From IMG/VR virus record IMGVR_UViG_3300033388_002613, positions 1-43,967 of that record: a stretch of DNA of 43,967 nt; one strand, given 5' to 3'. Positions 15,436-41,976 of this stretch are shown piece by piece. Position numbers and translations under genes: made by a program. The stretch's first letter is position 1; the number at the start of each line of letters is the position of its first letter. The DNA comes from a virus. The notes under the pieces are model-generated. The model searched no databases. It worked only from the letters and a program-made list of their open reading frames with translations, and had not been told where the DNA came from.

Positions 15436-15458
15436 ATTAAAATATGGTTCATTTTAAT
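15436..15458 (+). other. AT-only inverted repeat after the tube gene
   Basis: ATTAAAAT (15436-15443) and its complement ATTTTAAT (15451-15458) enclose a 7-base loop immediately after the tube stop codon. An 8-bp AT stem is weak, so it may be incidental or part of a compound structure with the GC-rich hairpin right after it. Confidence 0.4.
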
Positions 15459-15462
15459 ATGT

Positions 15463-15486
15463 TATGGGGCTTGTATGAGCCCCATA
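15463..15486 (+). terminator. Hairpin after the tail tube gene
   Basis: A 9-bp stem (15463-15471 with 15478-15486, with four G-C pairs and a G-C closing run) plus a possible T-G pair and a 4-6-base loop. The following sequence is TCATTAAT, not a U-run, so termination would be partial at best. It may instead mark a processing site or protect the tube mRNA 3' end. Confidence 0.6.
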
Positions 15487-15510
15487 TCATTAATATAGAA
15501 GGTTTAAAAT

Positions 15511-16506: not shown

Positions 16507-16517
16507 GGAGTAGTATA

Positions 16518-20185: not shown

Positions 20186-20713
20186 ATGAACTTAACACGT
20201 AATACAAAACTATGTAAAGCAACGAATGAAGATGGAGTTGAAATCATATTTAGAAGCTTAACTATAACTGAATTAAAAGTTTTAGATAATATAGTATCTC
20301 AATTTCACAAAGCAGAAATAGCATTCGAGCTAGGTTATATATCTGGAGGTAAACCTAATTTCTTTTTACAACAAGAGATAGGTAGAGATATAATAACAGC
20401 ATCCAGTCTTGAGATAAATGATGAAACATTGTTCGCACTAACCGTTGATGACATGAGAGCGTCTATTGACAACGATATGATATTTAATCTCATACAACAT
20501 ATCATTAGTATCTTACCAAGTACTACTATAGAATATCTATTAAACTTAACATATCTTGATATTATAGAACTCGCTGCACTGTGTGAAAAGATGAGTAATA
20601 AGAAAATATTTACTAATACACAATCAGCATCTATTAAACGAGAGGACGGCTTTTTATCAGACGATAGTGGGAAATCACTACAAGATAAGATGAAAGAAAT
20701 GGAAAAATTCTAA
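20186..20713 (+). CDS. Second small protein in tail-assembly-chaperone position, 175 aa
   Basis: The start is placed at ATG 20186 because GGAG at 20176-20179 lies 6 bases before it; a TTG 12 bases upstream lacks a site. The protein begins with a beta-like segment, then IIFRSLTITELKVLDNIV (shared in style with the preceding 100-aa protein), and continues as an alpha-helical protein with a hydrophobic core and a charged tail. Its stop overlaps the tape-measure ATG by one base, so the two are translationally coupled, which is typical of tape-measure chaperones. No -1 slip heptamer was noticed. The role is inferred. Confidence 0.8.
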   Translation: MNLTRNTKLCKATNEDGVEIIFRSLTITELKVLDNIVSQFHKAEIAFELGYISGGKPNFFLQQEIGRDIITASSLEINDETLFALTVDDMRASIDNDMIFNLIQHIISILPSTTIEYLLNLTYLDIIELAALCEKMSNKKIFTNTQSASIKREDGFLSDDSGKSLQDKMKEMEKF

Positions 20714-23700: not shown

Positions 23701-26700
23701 AGAGATAGCTTTAAGTATGGTGATGGTTGGCAGGGCGCATTACGTTTCATAGGTAAGCGTGGTGGACAGTTAGCTGGAACCGTAGCTGCTTATAAGGGTA
23801 TAGATGCTGCATTAGCTGCTGCACCTATGTTTGATGATACATCATTAGACGCTGGAATAACTGGAGCCTTAGCTGACACAGCTGCGAGTGCTCACTTATT
23901 AAGTTCAAGAGTATTGAATGGAACTGGTATAGCTGGAGTAGGTAGATATCTAGATGGTTTAATGCCTGGATTCAACTCGTCTGCTCCTGGTGCAATTATT
24001 GGTGCAGGTATGAGATGGGGCCAAGGCCCACTTGGTGTTGTTGGTGGAATGATTCGTGGTGCAGTTGGTAATAGAATGCTTGCACCTTACTCTCCTGACA
24101 TGACTAAAACTTACGATCAACTACAAAAAGAATATACAGGTGAAGAAGAAGTAGCAATGATTAAAGGTCGTGGTTGGTTATTAGGAACAACTCCATGGCA
24201 AGGTAATAAAGTTGTAGGTTGGAAACCTAACTGGTATGTTGAAGCTAAATCAAGATGGAAAGCGTCAGATACATTATATGGTTCAGAGATTAGAAAGCTA
24301 ATACATGAACCTCTTCCAGTGCTTAACTTTAATATCGGTGATGTATTGGATCCATATTACATGGAACGTAAACATTTCCATACTAGACCATATGGTGAGA
24401 CAGGTGGATTCTTAGAAGAAGCTCCATTAGGTATCGGTCCTATGTTATCAGCAGTCTTAGGTCCAATCTTTAAACCTAAGAAGAAGATGCATTCAGAATT
24501 CTTTGATGGTTACGGTGGAGGATATGGTGGTTCAGCTGAGCATAGTGAAGTTACAGCTATGCCTATCCCTGCTATGAATGAACAATCAGTATTCATGAAG
24601 TCAGCTGGTGCAATGAACCCAAGAATGGGACACAACAGATCTAACTTTATGGGTGCTTATGTTTACTCTAAGGACAAACATCACGGTCAACACATGGCTG
24701 ATAGATCATTAGCTGATTTAGAAAGTGGTATTGGTCTTGTAGGATTCGCAACTAATACAGCACGTACAGCATTAGCTGGTACACCAGAAGTTAAACCTAC
24801 TGTTGAGACAGCTGGTAGAATGGCTTCAATGTCTAGATCATATAACGATATGAACTTAGGTGGTTTAGGTACTATCTCAGAGGCAATGCGTCGTTTCATA
24901 ACTAAGCCTGACCATAGAAGAGTTGGTATTAATCCAATTCCTAACATGCTTCCTAACTGGCTTCCATCTAGATTCATGACAGGTGACCCATTTGAGAAGA
25001 TACTTAAAGGTGAATTAAGATTACCTGGTACAGCATATGAAAGAACTCATGATATTAACATGACGTTACCTGGACGTGCGTCTATGTTTGGTAACTCTAC
25101 TGCTGATATTGTATCATACTTTACAGGTCATAAGTCTCCAATATTAAAAGAACAACAAGATATCTTAGAAGAAGGTACTGAGTTCCACGAGAAGATACAG
25201 AACTGGCTTAAAGCTGAGAACATATTAATCTCTGCTGAGGATCTATTCTACGATGCCAAGAACAATATATCTGGTCACATAGATGGTATCATTAGAGATG
25301 GTATGGGTGGTGGTGGTAAACGCGCACTAGAGATAAAATCTATAAGTGAGAAAGGTCTTAAGAAGCTTGATGGTCCTAAGAACAATCACACATCTCAGTT
25401 GAACTTCTATTTACATGAATCAGGTATGAAGAAAGGATCTATATTATATGTATCTCGTGACAACCCTGCTAACTTTAAAGTATTTGAGATGGATTATAAC
25501 CACTCTAAATACAACAAGGATTTAGAGAAGATCCAACAAGCGCGTAAGATAGCATCAGGATTATTAGCGCAAGGTAAACAAGGTATGGCTAGAGGTTTTA
25601 GTTATTCTTGGGTTGATAGAATGAACATACTTGCTGACGTGGCGCCAGCTTCTAAACAATTTAAAGAAGCTAAGTCTATTGTACAACAACAGATGAAGAA
25701 TGGTATGACTGATGATGCTGACGTTGCTAAATATAGAAAGGCACTTAAGCATAGAGAGGCGACATTAAGAACACACGAAACATATGCTACTAGATTTGAA
25801 GGTAAAATTATGTCTCCTAGTGTTGAATATAATAGACAGAACTTAAACTTTAATATTAAAGCTGCTGCTGAGTATAGTGTAGCTGAAAGAATAGTTGGTG
25901 CTGCCTGGGAGAACTTCACTAATACTGATACGTTCTTAACTAATAAGTTCTTTGCGTTTAAGGACCCATTAGAGCACTATAAACAGATGCAAGTATATGG
26001 TAAGGAGTTTACACCTTGGACTGATCCATTTGGTAGTTTCATGCAACCTAGAATAAATAGAATACAAGGCGCAGATGATCCATTCAGAGGAGCAGTAGCA
26101 GGAGCAATAGATACAGGTTATCTAATTGGTGGTAGCCCTATGGCTTTAGTTGGTGGTTTAATTGGAGCAGCAAGTGGTGCAGCTAATATGATGAAGGGTG
26201 GTAGAAATTGGTTACCTAGTCATATTGAAAAAGAAAGACAGATTAATGATTACTTTGATACTATGGAATATAATAAGAATGAGCGTATGGCTAACCTATC
26301 AGAAGGAACTGAATGGGACAGGTTTAAGAACGCATCTAACTCAACCTTCCATAGTTTAATTCAAAATGAATCTACTGACTATACTAATATTTATAGAGCA
26401 GCATATGATTCAGAACGTCCTTATATATCAGCTTGGTTAAATGAAACTGATAAAGATAAACAACAAGAGATATTAAAAATTATACCTGATAGACTAGCTC
26501 ATGTGTTACAAGGGCATTGGCAGAAGTCAGGCTCAGCTATTAATACTCAAACGTTTATAGATAAGACTAGTGCTGGTGAATTTAATAATACTAACAAACA
26601 ACAATATGATATGAGAGCAATGGATCCTCATATGCGCACTGAAGATATAAAGCTTAAAGCAATTAACAACGCAGCGTTAAATGCTCATGACTTTGGTTTA

Positions 26701-26976
26701 GGTTGGGGTGAACAAATGCTACGAGCTCAGAATAGTTTTAATACTATATCTGATGTTGATATGAATGCTGATTATAATAACGCATCATTAGTGGACCCTG
26801 GTACAGTGAAGGCAGCTATAATGAATTTATTAATTCAAAATGGTTTACAAGCAAGAGTAAGAGTAAATATAAATGATCACGTTGACGGTGACGCAAACAA
26901 GATATCATTAACTATACAACATAACAGATTGAAAGAGATTAGATCTGCTGTTGATTTTAGAGCGAGGTTTATGTAA
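20713..26976 (+). CDS. Giant tape-measure-position protein with PD-(D/E)XK nuclease domain, 2087 aa
   Basis: Occupies the tape-measure position between the chaperone-like genes and the hub, and is rich in Gly, Ala, Met and Lys. Hydrophobic Gly/Ala segments occur near residues 34-56, 217-243, 1090-1120 and 1793-1832, as in tape-measure proteins that insert in the host membrane. Residues about 1470-1610 carry the full RecB/Cas4-type nuclease signature: GTEFHEKIQ (H1492), SGHIDG (D1524), LEIKS (E1540 and K1542) and QLNFY (Q1562, Y1566). Spacing from D1524 to E1540 is as expected for this superfamily. A Trp-rich segment near 1153-1180 (GWLLGTTPWQGNKVVGW) is of unknown role. Tape-measure identity is positional. 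The nuclease motifs are visible directly, but activity is not proven. Confidence 0.85.
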   Translation: MAYYDPYSSGSDSYYDPQNQSSGGETQSAMQSIKTGIVAMAGYAVTHAVVSKVVGAASKRFASSQARVATKALRQGGFSAKKTAMYQKLEGAKTGGDVLRARSSRIDKAYKSINRNQSMNAKIIGQRQAEITRLQKSRQTIDAQKHRFKSAFKDLKTFKAVAGRNITEHVIKGSVIGYGYDAATGQLESMGVKGDINPLNIVGHGVNYAKYMAKNAGMFAAMGNIGGMAKGAGSVVGGAARGFLSKNKGFTDTILENVDKLSGFNVKGAVDGRGNAIYKDAASSFIANNNKGLLNKAIAGATKAKDFATATVETMGPKMDVAMKQPFLKKPNSASHGGPAKHNNSSFNDSVMRAKDQIANSFKEKQIARKQRVSESATGFQKINMLSRSIAGTSEKALSDSEQIKNFAGLTSMLKDKSNNSNSFMQQIFGLEQTRMKDVMTTDYLTELGQGLSDKFAKGKQAQISQMLGQVRVGDDVFKAGRFNVDMNVMNPMNVMKRTLSGIGKMNFKMFDVIPMIGKNLSAGAIGMTDMLTSRDVQAFSLTSNNQGFGKVVRTADGRRTLSDVLAKDGYGVESQHRVSINYSNNKFFAIEGNKISELDTFSHIIKNGSPTVKGSNEFQKSEMSHLMAETRNSVPTKTTMDLKAIHDAKKADRHGQGFFGQMASNLDWVHVGLRQKQESIERMMNGGLTNNGRFKSVHESMYNDFLGTFAGHDAPFSKEQHRQLGRNLLDNIEPELVDIVKRPEVLSLMGRQSKKFSKGMKAAMQDEYALKDFLRNDVLTNETSDWTTLLKNDETRALINLTIQDPRSAKKHITRDRNGRYSDMSAVDSLRVKIFSAASGLADEEINPLMTNATFLRNQGVLSNSEASAMKLYGMVDSAYIDDAFKGNGTVENAALQKIYKKNKANGLNDIAEFTEYVKNNNIKSPSLIKSQTDVQMLLGDRDVTRTKVMTKDHTSFAAFGYKSDETRQWAVFNGVADVGAMRLTNLLADTVGFQRDSFKYGDGWQGALRFIGKRGGQLAGTVAAYKGIDAALAAAPMFDDTSLDAGITGALADTAASAHLLSSRVLNGTGIAGVGRYLDGLMPGFNSSAPGAIIGAGMRWGQGPLGVVGGMIRGAVGNRMLAPYSPDMTKTYDQLQKEYTGEEEVAMIKGRGWLLGTTPWQGNKVVGWKPNWYVEAKSRWKASDTLYGSEIRKLIHEPLPVLNFNIGDVLDPYYMERKHFHTRPYGETGGFLEEAPLGIGPMLSAVLGPIFKPKKKMHSEFFDGYGGGYGGSAEHSEVTAMPIPAMNEQSVFMKSAGAMNPRMGHNRSNFMGAYVYSKDKHHGQHMADRSLADLESGIGLVGFATNTARTALAGTPEVKPTVETAGRMASMSRSYNDMNLGGLGTISEAMRRFITKPDHRRVGINPIPNMLPNWLPSRFMTGDPFEKILKGELRLPGTAYERTHDINMTLPGRASMFGNSTADIVSYFTGHKSPILKEQQDILEEGTEFHEKIQNWLKAENILISAEDLFYDAKNNISGHIDGIIRDGMGGGGKRALEIKSISEKGLKKLDGPKNNHTSQLNFYLHESGMKKGSILYVSRDNPANFKVFEMDYNHSKYNKDLEKIQQARKIASGLLAQGKQGMARGFSYSWVDRMNILADVAPASKQFKEAKSIVQQQMKNGMTDDADVAKYRKALKHREATLRTHETYATRFEGKIMSPSVEYNRQNLNFNIKAAAEYSVAERIVGAAWENFTNTDTFLTNKFFAFKDPLEHYKQMQVYGKEFTPWTDPFGSFMQPRINRIQGADDPFRGAVAGAIDTGYLIGGSPMALVGGLIGAASGAANMMKGGRNWLPSHIEKERQINDYFDTMEYNKNERMANLSEGTEWDRFKNASNSTFHSLIQNESTDYTNIYRAAYDSERPYISAWLNETDKDKQQEILKIIPDRLAHVLQGHWQKSGSAINTQTFIDKTSAGEFNNTNKQQYDMRAMDPHMRTEDIKLKAINNAALNAHDFGLGWGEQMLRAQNSFNTISDVDMNADYNNASLVDPGTVKAAIMNLLIQNGLQARVRVNINDHVDGDANKISLTIQHNRLKEIRSAVDFRARFM

Positions 26977-29900
26977 TGCCAGAATTTAGAATAAACGGCG
27001 AGGCCGTTACAGATGGAGAATATGCAGAGAGTCCTAATTGGTTTGGAAGGGTTATGGTTGGTGGTATGTCTATTATTGGAATTGCACAAGTGGCTGCTAA
27101 AATTGGTGGGCCAGTAGGTGATGCTATTAATATAAGTATTAAAGATCAAGCTAACTCTGCTATGGAAAAGTTACTGGCTCAAGATGCTGGTAATAATTTT
27201 GATGCAGTAGGAGACTTTCAACATAAAATTCAGTTAGAGGATGGGTCTATATTTAAACCTGGTGAGATTAAATCAGGTGAGGAGATGGCTTCTATATTTA
27301 AAAGCCATTATGAGATGGACGATGCTTCTGCTTCTGTAAGTAATAGAATCAAAGGTGCTGAAGATCAAATAAGTAAAGCTATCTGGGATGCTAAAAAAGG
27401 TGAAAATTTATATACTCAGTTAGAATCATTGAATGGAACTAATACATCATCGTTTTATATTAATGGTAAAGCTATCAGTGGTACTAGATATAAGAGTGAA
27501 AAAGTTATTTTAAAGGCTGTTCAAGTTGACGCATTGAAACAATATGCTAGTTCTATGAGAACTAGTGGTGATAACATAAGTATGGATCTGTTTGATGTTA
27601 GTGTTGATAACTTAGACACAGCAGACGTGGAGTTAATCCAAGCTAATCACAATAGAATGATAAAGAGTAATAAGAAGTATGCTGATTTGTACTATGAAAA
27701 AATCAAGAAGATGAGAGAAACTGTAAGGCAGAACATTATTAAAGCTAATCCACAGATGCCATTAAGTGCGCATGATGTATTGGTTCCTAATTCTCATGGC
27801 TCAGTTGGTGACATGATGGTTGATGCTACTAACAATACTGTTACGATGAAGAACCAATCTCTTGAATTATACACTGTGAAATATGCTACTGATAACTCTA
27901 GGACTGTAGTTAATAAACGTAACGTATCTAATAATATGTTCTCAGACGAGATTATTAATAATCCTTTTTTCAGACGTTATGATATAGAATTAAAAAAGAC
28001 AGCAGGACTGTTAAGAGATATGCAAGCTAACTCAGCTGGTAGAATTAAAAACACATCTATTAATTATAAAAATATAGGTGGAGCTAATTATTTTGAAGTA
28101 AGAATTACAAGAGATTTCAGTACTAATTCTAGTAATGACCTAGTGAGACTAATACCTATAGTAGATAATACGGGGTCAGTTCCTAAACTTAAAGGTACAC
28201 AGAAGAGACAGCTAGCTGATTTAATACTTGTACAGAAAGAGTATGGTGTAGCTAATCAAACTAAAACTATTAATACAACTCTAAGACATATCCATGATTT
28301 AAATAATACACTTAAAACTAACTTAGCTGAAGTAGATTTAGTAGGTGGAGACATATCAAACTGGCAACAACTTCAAACTAAATTGAATATAGGAGCTTAT
28401 GGCATAGAAGACACCCTATCATTACTAGAAGGTGAAGGTAGAGATTTATACAAAATGCATGGTGCGAGAATGGCAATAGACCAGGAGTTTAGAGTTTTAA
28501 ATAGACCTAGTCAAAACACAGCTATGGCATCTTATAAAGCTGGTGTAGATAGTTTATTAAATATGAGCAGAGCTAAGGACGTTAATGGTACAACTATTAC
28601 TATTGACTTAGAAGCATTGAACGTACACGGTAAAACTTCTCCTGGCGCATTAGCAATGAGAACAACAACAGGCTTATGGTCTGCATCAATCCAGGTAGCT
28701 GATAGTAGTGGTAAAGTAAGTTCTATGACTGAGATTTCATCTACTCATATATTTAAAGAACAACGCCTAGATAGATTCATAGGTAATAATGGATACATTG
28801 ATAAAGCTCTGATAAATGAAGCATTAAATGCTGGGTATGGATCTGCTGGTCTGAGAGACTTTGCTGAATTCCAAAGATCATCATTAGGTGTTAAATCAAA
28901 TGACTTAGCTGACGCAGTAGAAGCGTTCATGAATGTAGTAAAAGATAAATCAGCATCATCTCCTACTGGAGAGATCAAGTCATCTGCTGAGTTTGGTAAT
29001 GAAGTTATATCTATTATACGTAAAGCTATTAAAGATAATGAGAAGAATGGTAAGGTTAACTTACTATTTGCTAATGGTACTCAGTTTGATATGCCTTTAC
29101 TTGAAACTCTTACAGGTAACTTTAATGATTTGAAAAAGTCTGTTAATATTATTGACTTAACTGATGTAAGTAGAGTACTTAACATTGGTAAGTTTGATAA
29201 GACTGGTAATAAGCTTAGTAGGATTGCTACACAACATGTTCTGAATGCTTTTCCAGAACTACATAAAGATAAATACAAATTCGATTTAGTTAACAACACT
29301 AAAGAGTCTATTAGATTACTATCTACTCCTAAGTTTAAACTAATCTCATCTTCTAAAGCAGACCAAACTATCATGGGAATGCTAGAAGGTGCTATTGGAA
29401 AAGGTGAAGTTCAATTGCATACCTCTGCTGCGGCTGATACATTGCTTACATATATTGGTTATCGCGCTATGCTTAAGAATGGTGAAGACGCTAGCTCTTC
29501 TACTAATGAGCAAATGAACATAGTTAATAATTTTATAGATGGAATACAAGGTAATATGTATGACAAGACTGCGAGTGACGCATATCAAATGTCTGGTCTG
29601 CTAACTATTGACGGCGTACGTTCTACTATATCTGGTCTATCTAATACTCAAGCATTAAAAGGAACAGGTTCATTAATTAACCCTGGTAATATAAATCCTT
29701 TCTGGTCTCTAAACCCATGGGCTAAACAGCTTCACCAATATGATAGACATGGTTATATCAGAAAGAAGAACCAATCACCTAAGCATAGATATAGAACAGC
29801 TATAACTAGTAACATTGCTGAGCAAATGAGTAACCAAGCATACAGAACTGCTGATATGGATAAGAATATATTTGCTAATAAGCTTGTATTCAAAACTGCG

Positions 29901-32900
29901 TATACCGTTGGTAGCTATGGTAATCAAGAAGGTGCAGCTGGAATCTTAAGAAGTGTACACGATGACTTAGCTGGTATGTTCACAACTAACAAATCTATTA
30001 AGATGGATATAGCTAGTATGAACTTTAATACTCCTGGCTTACATACTGATGTATGGAATATATATAACAAAGCACTTAACGCTGCTAAAGAACAACAAGC
30101 AGCTGGTGGCTCATTAATGGGTTCTAACTCAGATGCTGTTATGAATTTCATACAAGATGCATTTGCAGAAGAAGTAGCTAAGACTCCAGGTAACTTACAA
30201 ATTGATCCTGACAACCCAGCACACCAAAGAATGTTATTGGGACCTAATGATGTAGACATCAGTCAGAGCTCAATCAGTGCTAACGTTATTGGTATTAAGT
30301 TAGATGTAGATCCTACAACTAACAAGGTATCTAATATGTTATTACAAATACAAGAGGCAGCTGGTATTTCAAATGGTGTAGTTAATACTATGCAGGGTAA
30401 AAGTGTAGCTAATATAATTGATGTTAATGAAGCCGTAATGAAGAATGGATTAAGCGCATTAGGTTATAAGTCTACTGCCTTACCAGAAATGTTCACAGCG
30501 TTAGACGCATTAGATAAAGGTTATATTGGTACAGTAAAAGATATTGCTATTAAGAAGATCATGTATCAAGCTAATGAAGTATTAGATAGTAGTACGTCTA
30601 CTGCTCGTGAGAAGTCAGAAGCTAGGAAGGCTATGAAGCAAGTTGCTGGTCTTATGAAGGAATTAGGTGGAGCGTCTATTGTAGAGAATGATGGATTCCA
30701 TCAGTTAAAGTTTGATGATAAGCTAGCTAACATGTCGTCTGAAAAGATTATGACAGGAGCGCACAACATATCGTTTACTTCTATTATGGATATCTATTCT
30801 ACTGTAGGTCATGACTTAACCTGGACACATCAACAGATGATGGAGTACTATGGATTGTTTGGATCTCATGGTAATGATATATTAGTGGGTAGAGAGAAAT
30901 TAAATAAAGTAATAGCTGGACATTCATTTGGAGTCAAAGGTACTCCCGAAGGACAAATCCAGGAGATGAAAAAGTTAATGGCTAATGACAGTACTAAGTT
31001 TGATGCTATATTAGACCCACTATCACAAGTAGCTCACGAATTAGAAAGTAATGAGAAGTTTGTAAAATATAAAAATAGTGGACTAACTGGTTTATTTTCT
31101 GAGAACAATGCAACAGTATCTAATGTTATTAATCAAATGAAGATTGGTAAATTCTTTGAAGCTGTAGTGGACGCAAGATCTACTGAGCGTGATGGTACAT
31201 TTAAGACAACGTTTGGAATCTATGGAGTTAACGACGCACCTATTGGTGGTCAGGGTAAAGATACGTTTAAAATAAATGCGGACATATATTTAAGACATGG
31301 TTACTTTGATAACTTACTATCTTCAAAATTTACATCTATGACTAATAAGAAGATGATGATGAATAGTCAAACAGTTAAGACTAATGCGCAAGCAGCAGAC
31401 ATAGCTAATTCTATAAACACATTATTAGATGGTATGCAAAATAACAATCTATCTGAATTAAATAGTAAGTATGGTCTATCTGTATCTGATATTGAAAACA
31501 TAGTATCTAAAAAAGATACTAGACAAGCTATCATTAATAAAATAGGTGGATTAGCAAATGGTAAAGATAGTGATTTAATGTCTGAGCAAAAGCGATTAGA
31601 TGCGATGTTAGCAAATGGACATTTAAAAGATGCCAATCAACGTGATGCTCAGCTAATGACATTTAAGAGTGAACGTGAGAAACTATTACAAGATCAATAT
31701 GATAAGCCTAAGTTCGTATCAAACAGCGCAGTAGATTCAATGTTGAAATTAGGTGGAGAAGACGCTATGGGTATATTACCATTACATCAACAATTCACTA
31801 TCGACTTAATGGCCTTCGCTGAGAGCACTCATAACAGAGCACAGATGGGTAAGAACCCACTTGATATTCAAGCTACTATTAATTATGTTAAACAGTTAAC
31901 AGAGAGAGCTCAGTCAGATAAGAATTACGACCCTAAGAATATGTTAATGCGTATAGAAACGACTTCAGATGGACGTGACTTATTACACATGAATGGTCTA
32001 CCTATGCCTCTACATAATGAAATTAATAACGTAGCATCTAGAATGGATACACCATTAGGTGAAGGGTTTACTGGTCTTAGTGAAAGTGCTAAGTTACAAT
32101 CAGAACTATTTGATAGTTATATGGTTCTTAGAAATCAAGCATCTGCATCTCCAGACATGATAGCTAAGCACGCTAATGATACTTTCATGAACTGGTCTAA
32201 GATGATGAGTAATGCTATATCACTTGATAAAGATTCACTATGGAATCTAGGAACTCAAACTAGTACACTACAAGGTGTACGAGCTCACTATGATGTAACT
32301 GATAATATTACATTGAAAGCTAAATCGTACTTAGATGTTATTAATGGTGGTGCTCAAAATGAAAGAGTAGAATCTATATTTAAAGGTATGTCAGTTGATA
32401 AGCAACAATCATTTAAAAAGCATTTAGGTATGATCGCTAATGCTGGTGATGCTACTACGTTTGTATCTGCTCAGAATGTATTTGGTAGTAATTTAAAAAT
32501 GGGTATGGGAGATGGTAGTAGTATTGTATTTAACGATATGTTAAAGAGTGGCAGTAAACGCTTAAGATTAGAAGCTAACGATATTAAAAATGGATTAGCA
32601 ACTATCCCAGGTGGAGCAACTCGTTTCCCTATTGAGCCATCAGCACAGTTAGGTTTATTACAAATGAATATACTTGGACTACAAGATGAATTCATGGACA
32701 TGGCTGGTATAGATAAGCATAGAATATATATGAACTCTGTTGTTGGTGCGTTACAAAAAGCTGATACAGATGGTGATATGACTAACTTAATCATTGGTGG
32801 ATATAATACTTACGAACATTTAGAGATGTCAAGAGTAGAAGGAGCTATGGCTCAGAAACATATGTTTGCTAATGCTGACGTACAAACTATTATTAATCAA

Positions 32901-34220
32901 TATAATGATAAGGGTTTAGTTACAGGTATAACTCAGGATGGTAATGGTGTTACTAAATATACTGTAGCTGAAATGCGCTTAGATGGTAAAGGCTCTAAAG
33001 GAATTGAGATGACCGCTGAGGCATACTATGAAAGATTTGAAAATAGTACAATAGCTACGAACTTAAAGAACATATCTAATAATAAGTTTACTCATTTAGA
33101 TATGAATAAGTCAGTTAATCAAGCTGTTGAAAACCATATCCAAACATCTGCTGTAGGTGTATGGTCATCTAATACTATTGGTCTTGTTACAAATACTATG
33201 AGAGAACGTGCTCGTGACGTAACCTTATTAAAAAGTATAACAGGTAGCAACTCACTAGATGCAATGTTTGGTACAATTGAATCAGCGTTTGGTGAGATGA
33301 CGCAGCTATCTATTAAGATGGGTAAGCATGCGGACTTCGATGAAGTTAAAAAGATATCAGACGTAGCATTGTTTATGTCTAATCCTATGACTGAAGATAT
33401 GGACCTACAAAAGAACGCAAAAAATCATTTCTTAGAGTTCTATAAAGGAGATAAAAAACAAGAAATGGATAGTATGTGGGAAAGCTATCTTGATGGTACT
33501 CGCTTGATTGATAGACTAAAGAACGATGGTGAACATGGTAAGATATTTGATCGTTATAGAAAGGTAGAAGCTGACATACAACTAGGAAGAGATAGAGCAT
33601 CTATCTTTGGTGCTGCTGAATACAAAGCATATAATGATAAAGTATCTACTGCGTTAGAAACATCAATATCACAACGTGGTAATGAGATGATGAAGACATC
33701 TATTAATGTAATGTCTGCTAGAGCAGAAGGTAGTCTAGACTTAAACTTATTAAGACAGAGTGATGCATTCATAGATACAGCGACTAAGAAGTATTCTAAT
33801 AGAAAGTTTGCTGATTTAGCATCTAATAAGATCATGCAACGTGGTGGTAAGTTTGCAGCCTTTGCTGGTATGGCATTAATTGGAGCTAATATGTTTAGTC
33901 CAATGGTTGGAACAGGAGTGGATTCACTTGCTGGTAAGAATCATGCTATCAATAGTGAATTAGAATTAGGTAGAGGTGTAGCTCTAGACCAGGTTAATGC
34001 GTCGTTCTCTAAGGAAGCGTTCGCATACATGAATGATCTAGATACAAACAAGAAGGAACTTGAAGGAAATATTATGCATCAAATGATACAAAGTCAAACA
34101 CAAAATACAGTATTTGGACATCAGGCTAAACAATTTAAGTCTAGAGCTGATGTTACTAGAATTAATAGAATGGGTTACATTGGACCATTTGGTTCTAGCG
34201 AATACAGTAGAGGTCTTTAA
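26976..34220 (+). CDS. Giant virion protein with DEDDh exonuclease-like and RNA-polymerase-like motifs, 2414 aa
   Basis: ATG 26976 overlaps the previous stop by one base, with GAGG 8 bases upstream. Residues about 535-835 show the order of a DnaQ-like 3'-5' exonuclease: ITIDLEAL (D544, E546), ANGTQFDMPLL (D705) and LHTSAAADTLLTY (H815, D821; the His is one residue further from Asp than usual). Near residue 1930 the sequence KADTDGDM gives D1930-x-D1932-G-D1934, 47 residues after an R-F-P (R1883). About 180 residues later come SNTIGLVTNTM and GEMTQLSIKMGK. This resembles the catalytic-loop and following helix pattern of two-barrel RNA polymerases (YonO, crAss-like virion RNA polymerase, RNA-silencing RdRPs). 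A Ca-binding loop is the alternative. Hydrophobic segments lie near residues 23-50 and 2288-2312. It is probably a virion protein. Confidence 0.8.
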   Translation: MPEFRINGEAVTDGEYAESPNWFGRVMVGGMSIIGIAQVAAKIGGPVGDAINISIKDQANSAMEKLLAQDAGNNFDAVGDFQHKIQLEDGSIFKPGEIKSGEEMASIFKSHYEMDDASASVSNRIKGAEDQISKAIWDAKKGENLYTQLESLNGTNTSSFYINGKAISGTRYKSEKVILKAVQVDALKQYASSMRTSGDNISMDLFDVSVDNLDTADVELIQANHNRMIKSNKKYADLYYEKIKKMRETVRQNIIKANPQMPLSAHDVLVPNSHGSVGDMMVDATNNTVTMKNQSLELYTVKYATDNSRTVVNKRNVSNNMFSDEIINNPFFRRYDIELKKTAGLLRDMQANSAGRIKNTSINYKNIGGANYFEVRITRDFSTNSSNDLVRLIPIVDNTGSVPKLKGTQKRQLADLILVQKEYGVANQTKTINTTLRHIHDLNNTLKTNLAEVDLVGGDISNWQQLQTKLNIGAYGIEDTLSLLEGEGRDLYKMHGARMAIDQEFRVLNRPSQNTAMASYKAGVDSLLNMSRAKDVNGTTITIDLEALNVHGKTSPGALAMRTTTGLWSASIQVADSSGKVSSMTEISSTHIFKEQRLDRFIGNNGYIDKALINEALNAGYGSAGLRDFAEFQRSSLGVKSNDLADAVEAFMNVVKDKSASSPTGEIKSSAEFGNEVISIIRKAIKDNEKNGKVNLLFANGTQFDMPLLETLTGNFNDLKKSVNIIDLTDVSRVLNIGKFDKTGNKLSRIATQHVLNAFPELHKDKYKFDLVNNTKESIRLLSTPKFKLISSSKADQTIMGMLEGAIGKGEVQLHTSAAADTLLTYIGYRAMLKNGEDASSSTNEQMNIVNNFIDGIQGNMYDKTASDAYQMSGLLTIDGVRSTISGLSNTQALKGTGSLINPGNINPFWSLNPWAKQLHQYDRHGYIRKKNQSPKHRYRTAITSNIAEQMSNQAYRTADMDKNIFANKLVFKTAYTVGSYGNQEGAAGILRSVHDDLAGMFTTNKSIKMDIASMNFNTPGLHTDVWNIYNKALNAAKEQQAAGGSLMGSNSDAVMNFIQDAFAEEVAKTPGNLQIDPDNPAHQRMLLGPNDVDISQSSISANVIGIKLDVDPTTNKVSNMLLQIQEAAGISNGVVNTMQGKSVANIIDVNEAVMKNGLSALGYKSTALPEMFTALDALDKGYIGTVKDIAIKKIMYQANEVLDSSTSTAREKSEARKAMKQVAGLMKELGGASIVENDGFHQLKFDDKLANMSSEKIMTGAHNISFTSIMDIYSTVGHDLTWTHQQMMEYYGLFGSHGNDILVGREKLNKVIAGHSFGVKGTPEGQIQEMKKLMANDSTKFDAILDPLSQVAHELESNEKFVKYKNSGLTGLFSENNATVSNVINQMKIGKFFEAVVDARSTERDGTFKTTFGIYGVNDAPIGGQGKDTFKINADIYLRHGYFDNLLSSKFTSMTNKKMMMNSQTVKTNAQAADIANSINTLLDGMQNNNLSELNSKYGLSVSDIENIVSKKDTRQAIINKIGGLANGKDSDLMSEQKRLDAMLANGHLKDANQRDAQLMTFKSEREKLLQDQYDKPKFVSNSAVDSMLKLGGEDAMGILPLHQQFTIDLMAFAESTHNRAQMGKNPLDIQATINYVKQLTERAQSDKNYDPKNMLMRIETTSDGRDLLHMNGLPMPLHNEINNVASRMDTPLGEGFTGLSESAKLQSELFDSYMVLRNQASASPDMIAKHANDTFMNWSKMMSNAISLDKDSLWNLGTQTSTLQGVRAHYDVTDNITLKAKSYLDVINGGAQNERVESIFKGMSVDKQQSFKKHLGMIANAGDATTFVSAQNVFGSNLKMGMGDGSSIVFNDMLKSGSKRLRLEANDIKNGLATIPGGATRFPIEPSAQLGLLQMNILGLQDEFMDMAGIDKHRIYMNSVVGALQKADTDGDMTNLIIGGYNTYEHLEMSRVEGAMAQKHMFANADVQTIINQYNDKGLVTGITQDGNGVTKYTVAEMRLDGKGSKGIEMTAEAYYERFENSTIATNLKNISNNKFTHLDMNKSVNQAVENHIQTSAVGVWSSNTIGLVTNTMRERARDVTLLKSITGSNSLDAMFGTIESAFGEMTQLSIKMGKHADFDEVKKISDVALFMSNPMTEDMDLQKNAKNHFLEFYKGDKKQEMDSMWESYLDGTRLIDRLKNDGEHGKIFDRYRKVEADIQLGRDRASIFGAAEYKAYNDKVSTALETSISQRGNEMMKTSINVMSARAEGSLDLNLLRQSDAFIDTATKKYSNRKFADLASNKIMQRGGKFAAFAGMALIGANMFSPMVGTGVDSLAGKNHAINSELELGRGVALDQVNASFSKEAFAYMNDLDTNKKELEGNIMHQMIQSQTQNTVFGHQAKQFKSRADVTRINRMGYIGPFGSSEYSRGL

Positions 34221-34431: not shown

Positions 34432-37400
34432 ATGGCAACTAATATTAAAAATGTATATAATCTCGCGCAACTAGTACGATATTTGTATGCTAAAACAAGT
34501 GAGTTAGCAGAAGATATGAGTACATCATCATTAGAGTATGGTATGTGGACAGGTTTAGTTACTAGTCCAAAAGCAATATCATTCCTGCCAGGTACACCAT
34601 CTATAGACACTATAGATTTTCATAGTTTAATGGTTGATAGTATTTCTAGCATCTATTCTGATTTAGGTTTAAACGCATCTAATTTTAATAATGCTATTAT
34701 AGATCCTGATGTTCATAGTTTAGTTGACTCTAAAGATAAAGGATTATCTCCTGGTGATATATTAGAAGTTAAAGCGTTTGGTTCATCACACTTAGATAAG
34801 GACTCTGTTACATATATTACAATGGTTATGGATGCGGGTAATAATCAACTGATAACATATCCTAAAATACATTTAGGTTCTAGTAAAAAGAATATTAAGT
34901 ACACTAAGCTATATAGTTTAAAGAAGACATTACCAGAAGGAGCACTTAACAAACTCAATACTGAAGTGGGTCAATTCTTAGAATACGTAAGTAGTTCAAA
35001 GTTAAATGCTGAGATTAGACCAAGTGCTGTGTCTTCAACTAAAGGGTTTTTACAAATTGGAGATATCAAATTCATAGTTAGCCCAACTCAAATATCATTC
35101 AGTACACAGAATGGATATCAATACTTCCCTACAATTCGTACACGAGGTAATCCTAAGATCCCTACTATGCAAGAAGCAAAGGAAGTGAACATTAGTTTAA
35201 TCTTTCCTAATACTAATTCTATTAATAATGAGCTACTACCATTGTATGCCATGTTTAAACGCGCGCCATTTGTTAACATTAAAAACAAAGACATATCTAA
35301 TTTCTTCCACGAACTTAAAGATGATGAAGACTTTGTATCAGTTGCGCTATCATCTATTAATATCCAAAGTGTGAAAGGGTTTCCAAACACAGTTCAAGCT
35401 AGCCTAACACTACTACCATTCCAGAAGGAAGCAGTAGGTGTAGCATTTAAAGCATTAAAAACATTTGATGACGTTAGATATAAACAACTTAAATATAGTT
35501 ACATAACTGATGATTTTGATTCTATAGCTAATCAGAGTGAAGCACGTCTACGAGATAAGAGTGCATACTTTGGTAATGATATTAGTAGAATTGGACTTGG
35601 TAAAGATAATGATATAGGTTTTAATATAACTAGTGACTTTAGTTATAGTGAACCATTCCGCGCTTACTATCAAGGGCTATTAAAATATAGAAATAGTGTT
35701 ACAGATGAACTTGGTAACATAATAAGAAAAACAAATAATGACACCATATCATTGAATCCATTTAGACCTATGAAGGATACGAGTTATATCACAGCATATA
35801 TAGCTGATGCTAACCAACGTCCATTCAAGTTAGAGTATAGTTACGTTGATGAAAACGTTAGAGATTATACTAAAGCTATGAATAAAAGAAAAATGGATGC
35901 GAGATTAGATCTGTCTAGAATTGTAGGAACAGCTCGCACTGCATTACAATCAGTTGATGAGTTTAAAGAGAACCTACAAACAACTATTATAACACAACAA
36001 GATTTCTTTGATTCAACTCTTGCGCAGTTCAACTCATTAGATAGCTTCTTATCTGAATATTTCCAAGGCTTAGGATTACAAATAAATAATCCAGGAGTGC
36101 CACAAGTTAAAAGTTTAACTGAACTGTGTATCAAGATAGTGAAAGCTAAAGTTAACATTCAAGGTATCTCTATAGAAGACGCTGAATCTCTTTACAATAT
36201 TGGTAGTAAATTATTAAAGAAGGATGAAGTTTTAACTATCAATAGACAGGACAATATAGAATTCACAGATAAGATTAGCATCACTGATAAAGATGGTCAG
36301 ACTATCACAGCTGACAGCTATCTAGATGCTATCATTGAAAAGATGTTTGCAGCAGCTGAAATATTAAAAACACATACTGATGAAGGTGAGAGTGATACTG
36401 ACTACGATAAGTTTGTACTATTCTGGCAGAACATATATGATGTTATCTCAAGTGGTGGAGATGAAATAGATCTCAATACATTACTAACTAAAAACATTCA
36501 AGGTATGTCTACTGACGTTGTTGATATAGATAATAAGAATGATGTAGTGGATGGCTGGGGTATAACGTTTTCAAATAAATTTGTACCTATGCAATTACTA
36601 GGTTTCAAATATCCATTCTATCAACATATTGGATCAGATGATATCAACTTATCTATGAGTATAACTTCATTACAGAATGGTAGAGAATATGGTTTAAAAG
36701 AGAAGCTATCATTATTAAATGATAGACTACAACGAACTACTAAGATTATACTAATGAACATGCCTGAGTTAATTCACGCATACGATAAGAACTTAAAGGT
36801 TCAGTCTGAACACTCTAGTGCTACTAACCCTGTGCCTCTAGCTGATGGACATATCTTAAGTGTATTTGGGTTAAGGAATCTAGTATATAATAACTCTAAT
36901 GTGCAAACTATAACTGGTAAGCCAGACGCCTGGTCTATATCTGTTAACTTCACACAAGATAACTTCACACTACAAGAGTATCAATCTATAAACTCAGTAG
37001 ATAATAATTATACATTCGAAGATGATATAACTAATCTATTAGTTCGTAGTGATATGAATGAAAACAAACAAGTTACAGTGTATGATTATATACCAAATAA
37101 AGAAGCTATCAAAGCTGAACTAATAAAAGCTCAAACTAATGAAGAGTTAGCTAAGACGTTACAAAAAATGCTTCCTGGAATAGACTTATCTAATACTGCT
37201 ATACAAGACGTAGCTGATAATGATCTGATCTCATCCATTGGACCGTTGTCTTCTAACATGGCGCCATCTGATAAGTCTCAGCTTAACGATATAATAATAG
37301 GTCTTAACTTTGCAGAATATTATAAAACATTCTTAATGAATATAGCTAAGACGTTAAATAGTGATACTGAAAATTTCAATACAGCTAATAGAGCATCATC

Positions 37401-40400
37401 TAAGACTTTAATTGATAACATAATTAAAGAGTATAAATCTAACGATGTTATGTCTAAGCTATTTCTTAGAGTAGAAAACAAATCAGATTCTAGTAAACTA
37501 CGTGAGGCTTTAGCTGGTGATAATAATGAACGATTTAAAACTATATATAAAAATGTTATAGCTAGAATAGATTCACTATATGAACTTCAAGCTAACATAT
37601 TATTCCAAGGTGTACCTGAACCAACTCTACTACGTAATCTTCCTATAACTAAATGGAAAGATGTAATTACATACGGTGTCCAAGGTGGAACTGTAGGACT
37701 TGTTATGGGTGGCGGTTACGTTCTTATGGGTGCTGCCGCTGGTCTTACTCTTGTTACTGGTGGACTAGCGTTACCAATCGCTGCTGTTATGATTGGGTTT
37801 GCTGCGGCAAATGTCGCTGCTAAAGTATACAATACTGCTGAAGCTGCTACATCTAACGCACTTGTTAGTGGACTCAATGCTATAAATAGTACCATTAAAA
37901 ATAATAAGCAAACTATTACTAAATTACTAGAAGGTATTAGAGGATCATATCTATCTCAACTATCTAGAATAATATTAAAAGACCCTTATATCTTAAAACA
38001 ACTATTTGGTGATGAAGTATATGAAGCAGTTAGAGATAATTACAATTCATTTGGAGTTAATTGTTATAAAGATTTCGATGTTAAAAATGTAGATATTGCA
38101 GTTTTAAATGATGACCCAAAGCTATCAAAGCAAACATTTAATTTCGCACCTGACTTCTATTTATATAATAAGGATCTAGGTGAATTAAAAAAAGAAGAAT
38201 TTATTAAAGATGAATTACAAAACAAAATAACATCTTCTGAAATTCAAGCTAATATAATATTCCAAGATTTCAAAAAAGTAGTTATCAAATTAGAAACTAA
38301 TAAAGAATTATTATTCAAAGATGACACTGAGCTATACGGAAAGATAATATCAGATCTTAAGTTTATGAAGAACTCTAATGGTACTGACGCTAATGTCGCA
38401 ACACCTAATCTATCTACTACTAGTGATGTAGATGGAATAATTGTTGACTTAGCTAATGTGTATCTACAAATAGTAAGTAAGTATTCTGGTACTGGTATTG
38501 TAGATAATGGCAATGATACTACGGCTACTGACGCTCTTGATGTTGATGGATTAAAATTCAACATGTTACACGTAGCGCGTATAACTAGACTACTATCATT
38601 AAGAGAGATACAAATATCAATCAATGCAGCTATTAATGATGAGCAATATAGTTCATATAAAACATCTAAAGATAAGGATAAGGATCAAGATAAGAGTATT
38701 TTAACACTTCAGGGTGTTAGTAAAACATCAGTTAATAAATATAAACGATACATAGACTTATATTTCTCACAGTTTAAATCAGCTAATGAAATACTACTAG
38801 ATCAAGGACAGGTAGAAAGTACTGAGAAACAATCATTACTATATATCCCTGATGGCAAACGAGGCTCTATCACACAAATAGAAACTCAGATATATACTCT
38901 ACTACATCAACTATATGTACTAGATAGTGGTATCAAAGACGCTGTTGCTAATGGTAAGATGAATATCAATCTTAATAACTTCACTGATATACCTGAACTA
39001 GAATTGTTAAAATGGTATAACTGGAGATCAGCGGAGCAAGCGTTAACTGACGTAGAAATGTTAAATGATTTTAGAAAGTTCTCTAAGTCACAACTAACTA
39101 AAAGTACAGCTAAGTTATTCCCTACTCAAAAAATATACTTTGTTGAAGAAGATGGAAAGCTAGTACGTAATCTAGATGATTACTATTCATATGATGCTAT
39201 ACAAGCTGTTGACATTGTTATGAATAAATACGCAGCGGGTAGAACAGCTGTGTTAAGATTAGGTAACATGTTTAATAACTTAACTGATAAGATAAGTATT
39301 ATGGCTGAAGCTTTAGATTTTAAAGATAGAATCGATCAGATAGATGACCTGTTCTTAGGTACACTAGACATTAAGCCTGGAACTAAGATGATTATCAAAC
39401 AAGGTTATAGCGCTAATGATAAAGATCTACCTGTTGTGTTCGTTGGTAAGATTACTGATATGAAACCAGGTCCAGTTACAGAGATAGTTGCTCAGAGTTA
39501 TGGAGCTCAATTGAACCATTACATTGAAAAGTTAAACTTTGGTTTCTTATCATCTAGAAATGAACATGGTGATGTTGCTATAAATATCTTAGATAAGATG
39601 ATTTCAGCTGATGGACTTGGTAAGATGGACCCTACTAATGTTTTAAGTACTACGTTTAGTGGTAAGAATATTGGTAAGGTTAGAGAGAATACATTCAGTA
39701 AGTTTCTAATATCAAATATAACTACTAAGTTAAATGCTGGATTACTAGCATTCGATAACCCAAGAGATGAAAACATATATCTACCTCTTAGATTAGTAGA
39801 CTCAGTATGGGATAAAATAACATTTGACTGGCGCGTATATCAACAGACAGTATGGCAAGCGTTAGGTGAGCTAGCACTACATCATAGAAATACATTTCCT
39901 ATGGTTAAGCTATACAATAATGATAGACTTGCTAGTATGGATGAGCTAAGAGAGACAGTTATAGTTGGTGATAAAGCTGGATATTATAAGCACACTGATT
40001 CATATGGGTTCTCTTCTATGCATTACAAACAAATTAAAGAAGCTATAGATAATTGGAATACCGATATGGTTCCATATTTAACATTACTAGTTACTGGGTT
40101 AAGTAAACATATTATAGCTAACAATACTGGAAATATAACTAAGGATCTGATAGCTGATGGTTTTGCTCGTTTTGCTAAAGAGAATCCAATCTATGGAGAT
40201 CATAAAGTTGCCAATCTGATTGGTTATATTGTGAAGCACACAGCGGAGACTAAGAAGCTAACGCAACATATTACTAATAAGTATATGTCACTATTGCTTA
40301 TTAAAAAGTATATGTTAGTAGTTGAAGGTGAAAAGTTTGATAGCGTTACAGCATTCATACAGGGTATAGTTGGTGAAACATTTAAAGACTTATTCCATTC

Positions 40401-41976
40401 ACCTGATGCAATTACTGGATTAAATAAGCTGTTAACAATATATACTAGTAAATCATCCGCATTTAAAAGTGACTTAATAGTATCTAAAACAAGCTACAAG
40501 CTACAGTCAGCGTTAAAATATACATATGGTGACGACCTATTTATAAATTTCTTACATAGTATTATGTTAATGGCTATGAAGAAAGATGGTAAAATGTCAT
40601 TTGATTTAGATTTCATAACTGAAGAGCTATCTATTGAAGACTATCTGGATATTAAACCAGTGCTAACAGATAATACGGAACAGAATCTAGCTAGGGATAT
40701 GCAGTACACTAAAATACAAAACCATCATTTAGTGTCAGATAACTCAGACATCATATCTAATAATATAATGGTATCTCAATCATTTAATAATGCAGTGACA
40801 GTTTATTACTCAGAAGAACCAGTATATGATTCCTCTGCTGCTAACGGTGCTGTATATCCATTTACTATAAAAGCATTTGGTGATACTAGAGATGGTGATA
40901 CTAGAATATTAGAAACATTCCAAAAGAACATTGACCCAAACTACTTTGATATCGCAGTAAATCTTAGTGGATTAGTTACTGATTACAATGGAACGTCAAA
41001 ATACAATGAAGCAAATGATGATGCTAAGAATCAAGAGTATAACTCTAGACACTTTGATACATCACTTAAGCCAGTTTGGAATAAACTACCAGCGTTTTAT
41101 AAAGTAGGCTTAGGTTTACTTCAACGTGAAGTAGAACAAATGTACAGAGGCACACTACAATTAGTAGGATATCCATATATTGAACCATTTGATATCATCC
41201 ATTTAGATGACCAGATGAATAACATGGTTGGAACTATTGAAGTAGAAGAAGTGATACATTCATTTAATCCACAGCAAGGATTCATAACAACTATAACTCC
41301 ATCTATGATTACGTATGATCGTAATCCAATTAGAATGGCAGAGATAGCTACTATGAAAAGAATTGTTAAAATTGGTGAAGAGTACAAAGGTCTATATAAA
41401 TCAGCACGTAGATGGAATGCGTCCTTTGCAGCTCTAGGAGCAGCTATAGGAGTAGCAGGAGTTATAGGAACTGGTGGACTAATACTACCTATCATAATGG
41501 GATTAGGTGCAGTTGGATCTGCAGTACCAATGGTATCAAACTTATATGGTGCTACATATGGTGCTAACGTTGCTCAAAATAACTTTTTATATGATCACTT
41601 TGGTAATCTATTTGGTAGAGATTGTATTAACTTCTCAGCATTAACATATCATGGCGCTCCATTTATGGGTGGTTTTGGTGGAGTTGATTATACTAACATT
41701 ACAAGTATCATAAATCATCAAGCAATGGATGGTAGTATCATGCGTAGAATGGCAGGAGCAGCTGACTATGAATCAGCTTGGATCGCATCTCGTGGTAACC
41801 TTGAGAACATGGATTTAAAAACTACATTCTTTACTACTAGAGAAACACCATTCATATCTAATGTACTTAAAGGATTCTATGCGGCTAACGTATGGGGTAA
41901 GAAAAACAGAATGAGATATACAATGAGTAATATGATTGAACATAACATAAGAAATGGATTCAACGGAGGCAAATAA
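34432..41976 (+). CDS. Giant baseplate hub protein, 2514 aa
   Basis: Contains several parts typical of contractile-tail hub proteins. Residues about 205-335 (GDIKFIVSPTQISFSTQNGY, followed by a long beta-rich part with ending LTLLPFQKEA) and 709-865 (FSNKFVPMQLLGFKYPFY) look like two related beta domains of the distal-tail/hub type. Residues about 1640-1680 (IKPGTKMIIKQGYS then FVGKITDMKPGP) and 1799-1815 (VYQQTVWQALGELALHHR) match hub domains of the gp27/gpD/gp44 type, and 2236-2300 (GTLQLVGYPYIEPFDIIHL) matches their last barrel. Hydrophobic Gly/Ala-rich stretches lie at about 1084-1128 and 2330-2385. Usual hub proteins are 300-400 aa, so this is enlarged several-fold with helical insertions. 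Start ATG 34432 follows CGGAG. Confidence 0.82.
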   Translation: MATNIKNVYNLAQLVRYLYAKTSELAEDMSTSSLEYGMWTGLVTSPKAISFLPGTPSIDTIDFHSLMVDSISSIYSDLGLNASNFNNAIIDPDVHSLVDSKDKGLSPGDILEVKAFGSSHLDKDSVTYITMVMDAGNNQLITYPKIHLGSSKKNIKYTKLYSLKKTLPEGALNKLNTEVGQFLEYVSSSKLNAEIRPSAVSSTKGFLQIGDIKFIVSPTQISFSTQNGYQYFPTIRTRGNPKIPTMQEAKEVNISLIFPNTNSINNELLPLYAMFKRAPFVNIKNKDISNFFHELKDDEDFVSVALSSINIQSVKGFPNTVQASLTLLPFQKEAVGVAFKALKTFDDVRYKQLKYSYITDDFDSIANQSEARLRDKSAYFGNDISRIGLGKDNDIGFNITSDFSYSEPFRAYYQGLLKYRNSVTDELGNIIRKTNNDTISLNPFRPMKDTSYITAYIADANQRPFKLEYSYVDENVRDYTKAMNKRKMDARLDLSRIVGTARTALQSVDEFKENLQTTIITQQDFFDSTLAQFNSLDSFLSEYFQGLGLQINNPGVPQVKSLTELCIKIVKAKVNIQGISIEDAESLYNIGSKLLKKDEVLTINRQDNIEFTDKISITDKDGQTITADSYLDAIIEKMFAAAEILKTHTDEGESDTDYDKFVLFWQNIYDVISSGGDEIDLNTLLTKNIQGMSTDVVDIDNKNDVVDGWGITFSNKFVPMQLLGFKYPFYQHIGSDDINLSMSITSLQNGREYGLKEKLSLLNDRLQRTTKIILMNMPELIHAYDKNLKVQSEHSSATNPVPLADGHILSVFGLRNLVYNNSNVQTITGKPDAWSISVNFTQDNFTLQEYQSINSVDNNYTFEDDITNLLVRSDMNENKQVTVYDYIPNKEAIKAELIKAQTNEELAKTLQKMLPGIDLSNTAIQDVADNDLISSIGPLSSNMAPSDKSQLNDIIIGLNFAEYYKTFLMNIAKTLNSDTENFNTANRASSKTLIDNIIKEYKSNDVMSKLFLRVENKSDSSKLREALAGDNNERFKTIYKNVIARIDSLYELQANILFQGVPEPTLLRNLPITKWKDVITYGVQGGTVGLVMGGGYVLMGAAAGLTLVTGGLALPIAAVMIGFAAANVAAKVYNTAEAATSNALVSGLNAINSTIKNNKQTITKLLEGIRGSYLSQLSRIILKDPYILKQLFGDEVYEAVRDNYNSFGVNCYKDFDVKNVDIAVLNDDPKLSKQTFNFAPDFYLYNKDLGELKKEEFIKDELQNKITSSEIQANIIFQDFKKVVIKLETNKELLFKDDTELYGKIISDLKFMKNSNGTDANVATPNLSTTSDVDGIIVDLANVYLQIVSKYSGTGIVDNGNDTTATDALDVDGLKFNMLHVARITRLLSLREIQISINAAINDEQYSSYKTSKDKDKDQDKSILTLQGVSKTSVNKYKRYIDLYFSQFKSANEILLDQGQVESTEKQSLLYIPDGKRGSITQIETQIYTLLHQLYVLDSGIKDAVANGKMNINLNNFTDIPELELLKWYNWRSAEQALTDVEMLNDFRKFSKSQLTKSTAKLFPTQKIYFVEEDGKLVRNLDDYYSYDAIQAVDIVMNKYAAGRTAVLRLGNMFNNLTDKISIMAEALDFKDRIDQIDDLFLGTLDIKPGTKMIIKQGYSANDKDLPVVFVGKITDMKPGPVTEIVAQSYGAQLNHYIEKLNFGFLSSRNEHGDVAINILDKMISADGLGKMDPTNVLSTTFSGKNIGKVRENTFSKFLISNITTKLNAGLLAFDNPRDENIYLPLRLVDSVWDKITFDWRVYQQTVWQALGELALHHRNTFPMVKLYNNDRLASMDELRETVIVGDKAGYYKHTDSYGFSSMHYKQIKEAIDNWNTDMVPYLTLLVTGLSKHIIANNTGNITKDLIADGFARFAKENPIYGDHKVANLIGYIVKHTAETKKLTQHITNKYMSLLLIKKYMLVVEGEKFDSVTAFIQGIVGETFKDLFHSPDAITGLNKLLTIYTSKSSAFKSDLIVSKTSYKLQSALKYTYGDDLFINFLHSIMLMAMKKDGKMSFDLDFITEELSIEDYLDIKPVLTDNTEQNLARDMQYTKIQNHHLVSDNSDIISNNIMVSQSFNNAVTVYYSEEPVYDSSAANGAVYPFTIKAFGDTRDGDTRILETFQKNIDPNYFDIAVNLSGLVTDYNGTSKYNEANDDAKNQEYNSRHFDTSLKPVWNKLPAFYKVGLGLLQREVEQMYRGTLQLVGYPYIEPFDIIHLDDQMNNMVGTIEVEEVIHSFNPQQGFITTITPSMITYDRNPIRMAEIATMKRIVKIGEEYKGLYKSARRWNASFAALGAAIGVAGVIGTGGLILPIIMGLGAVGSAVPMVSNLYGATYGANVAQNNFLYDHFGNLFGRDCINFSALTYHGAPFMGGFGGVDYTNITSIINHQAMDGSIMRRMAGAADYESAWIASRGNLENMDLKTTFFTTRETPFISNVLKGFYAANVWGKKNRMRYTMSNMIEHNIRNGFNGGK

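Follow-up and report, generated by a model that had tools for sequence, protein, structure and literature searches.

Background

Among the closest described systems is that of Thermus phage P23-45, whose tape measure contains a two-barrel virion RNA polymerase of proven activity (PMC10770324). This enzyme is thought to transcribe pre-early genes while the DNA crosses the envelope; the phage also possesses a second, non-virion polymerase, and its relatives G18 and phiFa do without the tail-borne polymerase (PMC10770324). A single-chain two-barrel virion polymerase is likewise present in the giant protein gp66 of crAss-like phages (phi14:2; PDB 6VR4), and the contractile-tailed phages phiKZ and AR9, which have both virion and non-virion multisubunit polymerases, package a two-barrel enzyme. 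In Bacillus phage 0305phi8-36, the role of tape measure was given to orf146, located between orf145 and the hub orf147 (PMC2147016), while the only polymerase recognised is gp99 (orf99), a YonO-like enzyme (PMC2147016, PMC7824862), and this is also the only one listed for the phage by Iyer et al.

The stretch of DNA analysed here (hereafter, the window) is the 43,967-base IMG/VR record IMGVR_UViG_3300033388_002613, a fragment; all features given below lie on its + strand. On the basis of ORF, gene slot and homologues, it encodes a giant virion-module protein of 2414 aa (26976–34220) combining a DnaQ-like exonuclease domain, a two-barrel RNA polymerase and a hydrophobic segment in the C-terminal region. 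The likeness to P23-45 gp96 consists in a single-chain two-barrel polymerase with a DxDGD motif within a giant tail protein, in a second, non-virion polymerase encoded elsewhere (in several phages related to that of the window), and in tail proteins that lack the polymerase in some relatives of each phage. Whereas P23-45 is a siphovirus whose 5002-aa tape measure carries the polymerase close to its N-terminus, the window phage has a contractile tail and carries the polymerase in the C-terminal half of the protein, together with the exonuclease. P23-45 gp96 was not among the matches of the PDB profile searches described below, and no sequence kinship beyond the superfamily was shown. The same searches did not return crAss-like gp66, which is similar in being a giant single-chain protein but belongs to short-tailed phages of Bacteroidota. 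The polymerases of phiKZ and AR9 share with the proposed one their packaging in contractile-tailed virions, but are composed of several separate subunits rather than one chain and do not occupy the tape-measure slot. Phage 0305phi8-36 belongs to the same lineage as the window phage, and its gp146 (annotated tape measure) is inferred to occupy the slot of the window protein from gene order, the notes of the ME3 record and PMC2147016. The virion RNAP beta subunit of phage vB_BpuM_BpSp was set aside, being a separate annotated 58.7 kDa polymerase subunit and not a giant tail protein.

Lineage and gene neighbourhood of the window

Head and tail genes identified in the window included portal, protease, major head protein, two sheath ORFs and baseplate. 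By these genes, the nearest phages were Moorella phage MTATph1, Bacillus phage KLEB27-3 and Acinetobacter phage ME3, a group representing the lineage of 0305phi8-36 according to the ME3 record notes. The contractile tail proposed in an earlier note, made from sequence alone, was confirmed by the two sheath ORFs (506 and 456 aa; 11814–14682), which matched the tail sheath profiles PHROG 16991 and 279. These ORFs overlap, a single sheath profile being matched in its N-terminal part by the first and in its C-terminal part by the second, and two sheath genes were also present in relatives of the window phage. Three consecutive proteins at 14740–19616 matched PHROG 9206 'major head protein'; given their sheath-adjacent position and the annotation of KLEB27-3, they are likely to be tail-tube paralogues rather than head proteins.

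The gene for the 2414-aa protein sits among tail genes, between a giant 2087-aa protein of the tape-measure region (20713–26976; homologous to KLEB27-3 gp31/gp33, MTATph1 CDS26 and ME3 gp35) and the 2514-aa baseplate hub encoded directly 3′ of it (34432–41976; homologous to KLEB27-3 gp35, MTATph1 CDS32 and ME3 gp37), the conserved domain of which spans hub residues 2219–2293. A Cas4-like PD-(D/E)XK nuclease domain was detected in the 2087-aa protein (residues 1480–1612, window 25150–25548; PHROG 1706, E 1.8e-16). Although the position of the 2414-aa protein fits the tape-measure assignment of 0305phi8-36 orf146, the 2087-aa neighbour is an equally good candidate, and the evidence does not favour either of the two for this role.

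Proposed active-site motif of the 2414-aa protein

The earlier note had placed a possible two-barrel polymerase active site in this protein, naming an R-x-P triad and an aspartate loop, and both were found at the residues and coordinates it gave. R1883-F-P1885 (32622–32630) is the equivalent of the beta′ R-x-P located upstream of the catalytic loop, being invariant in alignments of 10, 14 and 21 sequences and supported by PDB profile alignments. D1930-T-D1932-G-D1934 (32763–32777) is the predicted Mg-binding catalytic loop of the second, beta′-like barrel (DPBB-B), as indicated by family alignments, a PDB profile match and profile-profile comparison. It is the sole D-x-D-[GA]-D across the six frames of the window.

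When the 2414-aa sequence was shuffled 20,000 times, D-x-D-[GAQ]-D alone arose by chance in 14.4% of the copies, and the combination of R-x-P, 30–60 residues and D-x-D-[GAQ]-D in 0.2%. In the window protein alone, the motif is thus suggestive and not decisive; it exceeds chance because it is kept in the same gene slot of relatives less than 25% identical and is picked out exactly by profile-profile comparison.

Two downstream segments had also been put forward as conserved stretches, SNTIGLVTNTM (residues 2065–2075; 33168–33200) and GEMTQLSIKMGK (residues 2106–2117; 33291–33326). This held as well: in alignments with relatives they coincided with the family blocks G-x3-N and Q-x2-I-x2-K-H, respectively, or in fuller form G-K-x2-I-G-x3-N and, for the slightly longer segment GEMTQLSIKMGKHADF (33291–33338), Q-x2-I-S-x-K-H. 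The latter block may be a trigger-loop or substrate-contacting element, an inference only.

The candidate first, beta-like barrel (DPBB-A) at residues ~1400–1480 (31173–31415) is the weakest assignment and relies on a MAFFT alignment with relatives only. A conserved block, E-K-x-T ... K-H, is present at this position in the relatives; these could be the catalytic lysines of a beta-like barrel, a correspondence that was matched by eye and is unreliable in the window. A hydrophobic, TM-like segment (residues 2281–2311; 33816–33908) was identified by Kyte-Doolittle scan and by alignment with a related protein (L005).

Conservation among relatives

Direct searches with the window protein as query gave no matches, and relatives were reached first via the portal and then with the conserved hub domain as an anchor. 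Two scans with this domain yielded 40 distinct IMG/VR contigs, and a separate scan of bacterial genomes gave only three loci. In 34 of the 40 IMG/VR contigs, the protein encoded immediately before the hub contained R-x-P 30–60 residues ahead of D-x-D-x-D, a count which spans both IMG/VR scans and includes several near-identical contigs. The window protein aligned to L005 with E 5e-22 over residues 1802–2412, with the motif aligned. No similarity to KLEB27-3 gp034 could be seen by BLASTP; this 2434-aa protein, annotated 'structural protein', has R-Y-P...A-D-Y-D-G-D at residue 1933, vs 1930 in the window. ME3 gp36, a syntenic homologue of the window protein, has R-E-P...D-H-D-Q-D.

In a ten-sequence alignment of 1804 columns that included the window, the only invariant positions were one proline together with R1883, P1885, D1930, D1932 and D1934. 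Among 21 other diverse relatives, the invariants were the same R, P, D, D and D plus a lysine ~120 residues downstream, corresponding by alignment to K2117 of the window, in the K-H of GEMTQLSIKMGKHA.

Slot proteins without the motif were found in some relatives (L010, L012, L064 and L073), and in MTATph1 the polymerase core is missing; the polymerase is therefore dispensable in some members and not essential to the tail. In L042, L043, L064 and L073, the slot protein lying just upstream of the hub showed no R-x-P...D-x-D-x-D. The MTATph1 slot gene (L002 30512–37868) is split by an IS21-like insertion, consisting of the annotated transposase and IstB-like ATPase, and retains the exonuclease part and the C-terminal part.

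Profile evidence for a two-barrel RNA polymerase

When family profiles were compared with all PDB sequences, the best match each time was the beta′ subunit of the phiKZ non-virion polymerase (PHIKZ055), with E values of 1.3e-4, 4.3e-5 and 1.4e-5, and the alignment spanned exactly the region from R-x-P to D-x-D-G-D. With the 21-sequence profile, 36 of the 37 matches up to E 10 were beta′/RPB1-type chains aligned at the same site; phiKZ alone was clearly significant, the next match being a bacterial beta′ (E 0.012). The hallmark of the beta′ barrel, a D-x-D-G-D loop with upstream R-x-P, is met, as aligned to phiKZ beta′ and cellular beta′/RPB1. Family members also matched PHROG 2987, RNA polymerase beta subunit (E 8e-7), and Pfam RNA_pol_Rpb1_2 (E 3e-4, below the curated cut-off). 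No significant sequence match to beta was obtained for the first barrel, and a search with this barrel alone returned chance matches only.

The window protein itself was connected to the family by hhalign, in which a profile of the window protein and one relative (L034) aligned with the 21-sequence profile precisely at the motif (score 43.5; 20 column shuffles reached no more than 22.7, and the reversed control 16.9). On its own, the window protein matched the family core profile marginally (E 0.045, best shuffle 0.18), and the significance of the window-to-family comparison depends on adding the relative L034 or L005.

Collectively, the family of the window protein is almost certainly a two-barrel RNA polymerase, a single-chain relative of the cellular enzyme, with catalysis inferred. 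The active-site claim of the earlier note thus held at family level, through PDB profiles, PHROG and Pfam matches and the fold of a relative. Its suggestion of a specific kinship to YonO and RNA-silencing polymerases was not borne out: phiKZ beta′ was the best sequence match, and PF05183 (YonO-like/RNA-silencing) was absent in a Pfam scan of the window protein and the family cores. Hhalign of the family against the YonO-like polymerases of the same phages produced no active-site alignment, the match being off-site and little above the reversed control. Kinship by duplication between the virion-type family and the YonO-like polymerases is consequently not claimed.

Predicted fold

The earlier note had called for a structure prediction of the window protein. 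AlphaFold2 run on the window region with ten sequences was uninformative (pLDDT 36.7) and constitutes evidence neither way; because of this failure, the family membership of the window protein rests on homology and gene order. For a relative (L018, 14 sequences), a model with pLDDT 67.9 and pTM 0.60 was obtained. Foldseek comparison of this model with the PDB gave 545 matches at E ≤ 0.001, and the top 50 were all RNA polymerases, mostly beta′/largest-subunit chains along with two second-subunit chains (8xmc_B and 8q3i_C). Matches to both beta′ and beta chains would be expected from one chain with both barrels, which is the likely explanation, albeit resting on a predicted model of moderate pLDDT and on matches without residue ranges. 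TM-scores over the long chains were low (0.11–0.18; 0.45 and 0.39 for the best-matching viral models) because the model is long and partly disordered, as are its targets. Against viral models (BFVD), the L018 model matched a 'minor tail protein' of Siphoviridae sp. ctnpt50 (9e-18) and ME3 gp36 (7e-12).

Exonuclease domain on the same chain

A DnaQ-like (DEDDh) 3′-5′ exonuclease domain was located at residues ~543–821 (28602–29438) by hhalign to the N-terminal domain of the family and by its motifs: exo I D544-x-E546 (IDLEAL), exo II D705 (NGTQFDMPLL) and exo III H815...D821 (HTSAAAD), the catalytic residues being assigned by eye. The profile of the window protein and L034 aligned with the family N-terminal domain at window residues 669–757 (P 0.0014; reversed control 0.18). 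MTATph1 CDS27 and a further relative (L039) passed the Pfam RNase_T cut-off in their N-terminal halves. DEDDh exonuclease criteria (exo motifs and RNase_T profile) are therefore met, in the window by hhalign and motifs. The exonuclease was fused to the polymerase chain in most full-length relatives; to our knowledge, no exonuclease fused to a virion polymerase has been known. This domain, the family-wide conservation and the long-tailed precedent of P23-45 (PMC10770324) had all been omitted from the earlier note.

Proposed mechanism and rival explanations

Family membership, gene position, conservation of the catalytic residues and, in a relative, a predicted two-barrel fold are shown. The likely interpretation is that the 2414-aa tail protein in the tape-measure slot of this contractile-tailed phage, a member of the 0305phi8-36/KLEB27-3/ME3 lineage, is a two-barrel RNA polymerase on a single chain and is carried in the virion, with catalysis, packaging, injection and a role in early genes being inferred. 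The proposal of a single-chain virion polymerase, also made previously, is supported to this extent, its catalytic activity and virion presence remaining inferences. One chain would hold both barrels, of which the second, beta′-like one would bind Mg2+ via D1930, D1932 and D1934, beside R1883-x-P1885. The polymerase chain would be built into the tail, exit with the DNA and transcribe the first-entering genes before, or without, the host RNA polymerase; several relatives encode a free YonO-like polymerase at another location, which would take over afterwards. The N-terminal DnaQ-like exonuclease may act on nucleic acid where the DNA enters, by trimming or proofreading it. A tail-borne, injected polymerase is inferred because of the tape-measure slot of 0305phi8-36, the P23-45 precedent and the pairing with a second polymerase in relatives. 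YonO-like PF05183 proteins were detected in nine related records, encoded elsewhere in the same records (L027, L028, L029, G014, G015, G017, G018, G020 and G025), six over the Pfam cut-off and three below it.

A polymerase-derived domain that has lost catalysis in the window phage, and now has a structural or DNA-binding role in the tail, is an unlikely alternative that nonetheless has some support: the window sequence belongs to the most divergent group, its first barrel is barely recognisable, the motif is absent from some relatives, and the MTATph1 gene is interrupted with the core missing. However, the R, the P, the three aspartates and the downstream lysine are retained in the window and a relative despite near-total change elsewhere, which argues for selection on catalysis. 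It is also conceivable, though very improbable, that the product of the two-barrel enzyme is DNA, as with archaeal PolD, or primers, and that the DnaQ-like exonuclease proofreads it. PolD shares the two-barrel fold, and most full-length relatives carry the exonuclease within the polymerase chain; but profile and fold matches go to RNA polymerases, virion RNA polymerases in tail proteins are already known (PMC10770324), and ME3 gp36 and one other member (L006) are shorter.

A chance motif or an unrelated calcium-binding loop can be all but ruled out. The aspartate motif alone does appear in 14% of shuffles, as noted above, but such a reading is refuted by family conservation, profile matches and the fold of the relative. 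An EF-hand-like loop, which the earlier note had named as a possible refutation, failed as an alternative: the loop DTDGDMTNLIIG has no Gly at position 6 and no Glu/Asp at position 12, and the relatives keep R-x-P and the three aspartates. The EF-hand reading was rejected on these grounds, and a virion-borne two-barrel RNA polymerase remains the preferred interpretation.

Distribution and significance

No description of the window-protein family was found in the literature searched, while a partial listing in the two-polymerase survey of the PMC10770324 supplement is possible. A bolder reading, towards which we lean with some reservation, is that in an ancient and large lineage of contractile-tailed jumbo phages and phage-plasmids the tape-measure protein holds an unrecognised fusion of single-chain virion RNA polymerase and DnaQ-like exonuclease, to which some members add a free YonO-like polymerase, and that tail-coupled transcription during DNA entry may be a general strategy rather than an oddity of Thermus phages. 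If this is true, an RNA polymerase in the envelope-crossing tail protein, known from one Thermus siphovirus group, would be widespread in contractile-tailed phages, covering phages of Bacillus, Paenibacillus, Alicyclobacillus, Acinetobacter and uncultured hosts. The family would also add a deep, divergent branch to two-barrel polymerase evolution, and KLEB27-3, ME3 and the ~205 kb elements of Bacillus licheniformis would offer cultured systems for the coupling of DNA entry and transcription. Members of the family are currently annotated as hypothetical, structural or minor tail proteins, or as tape measure (0305phi8-36, if its slot protein is alike).

Bacillus and Paenibacillus 'plasmids' of ~200–230 kb (L080 and hits H12–H18) also matched the family core. 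One of them, a 212 kb 'plasmid' of Bacillus licheniformis (L080), carries a complete tail module of the window-phage lineage, so that these 'plasmids' are probably phage-plasmids; in the B. licheniformis records, the family protein is called hypothetical.
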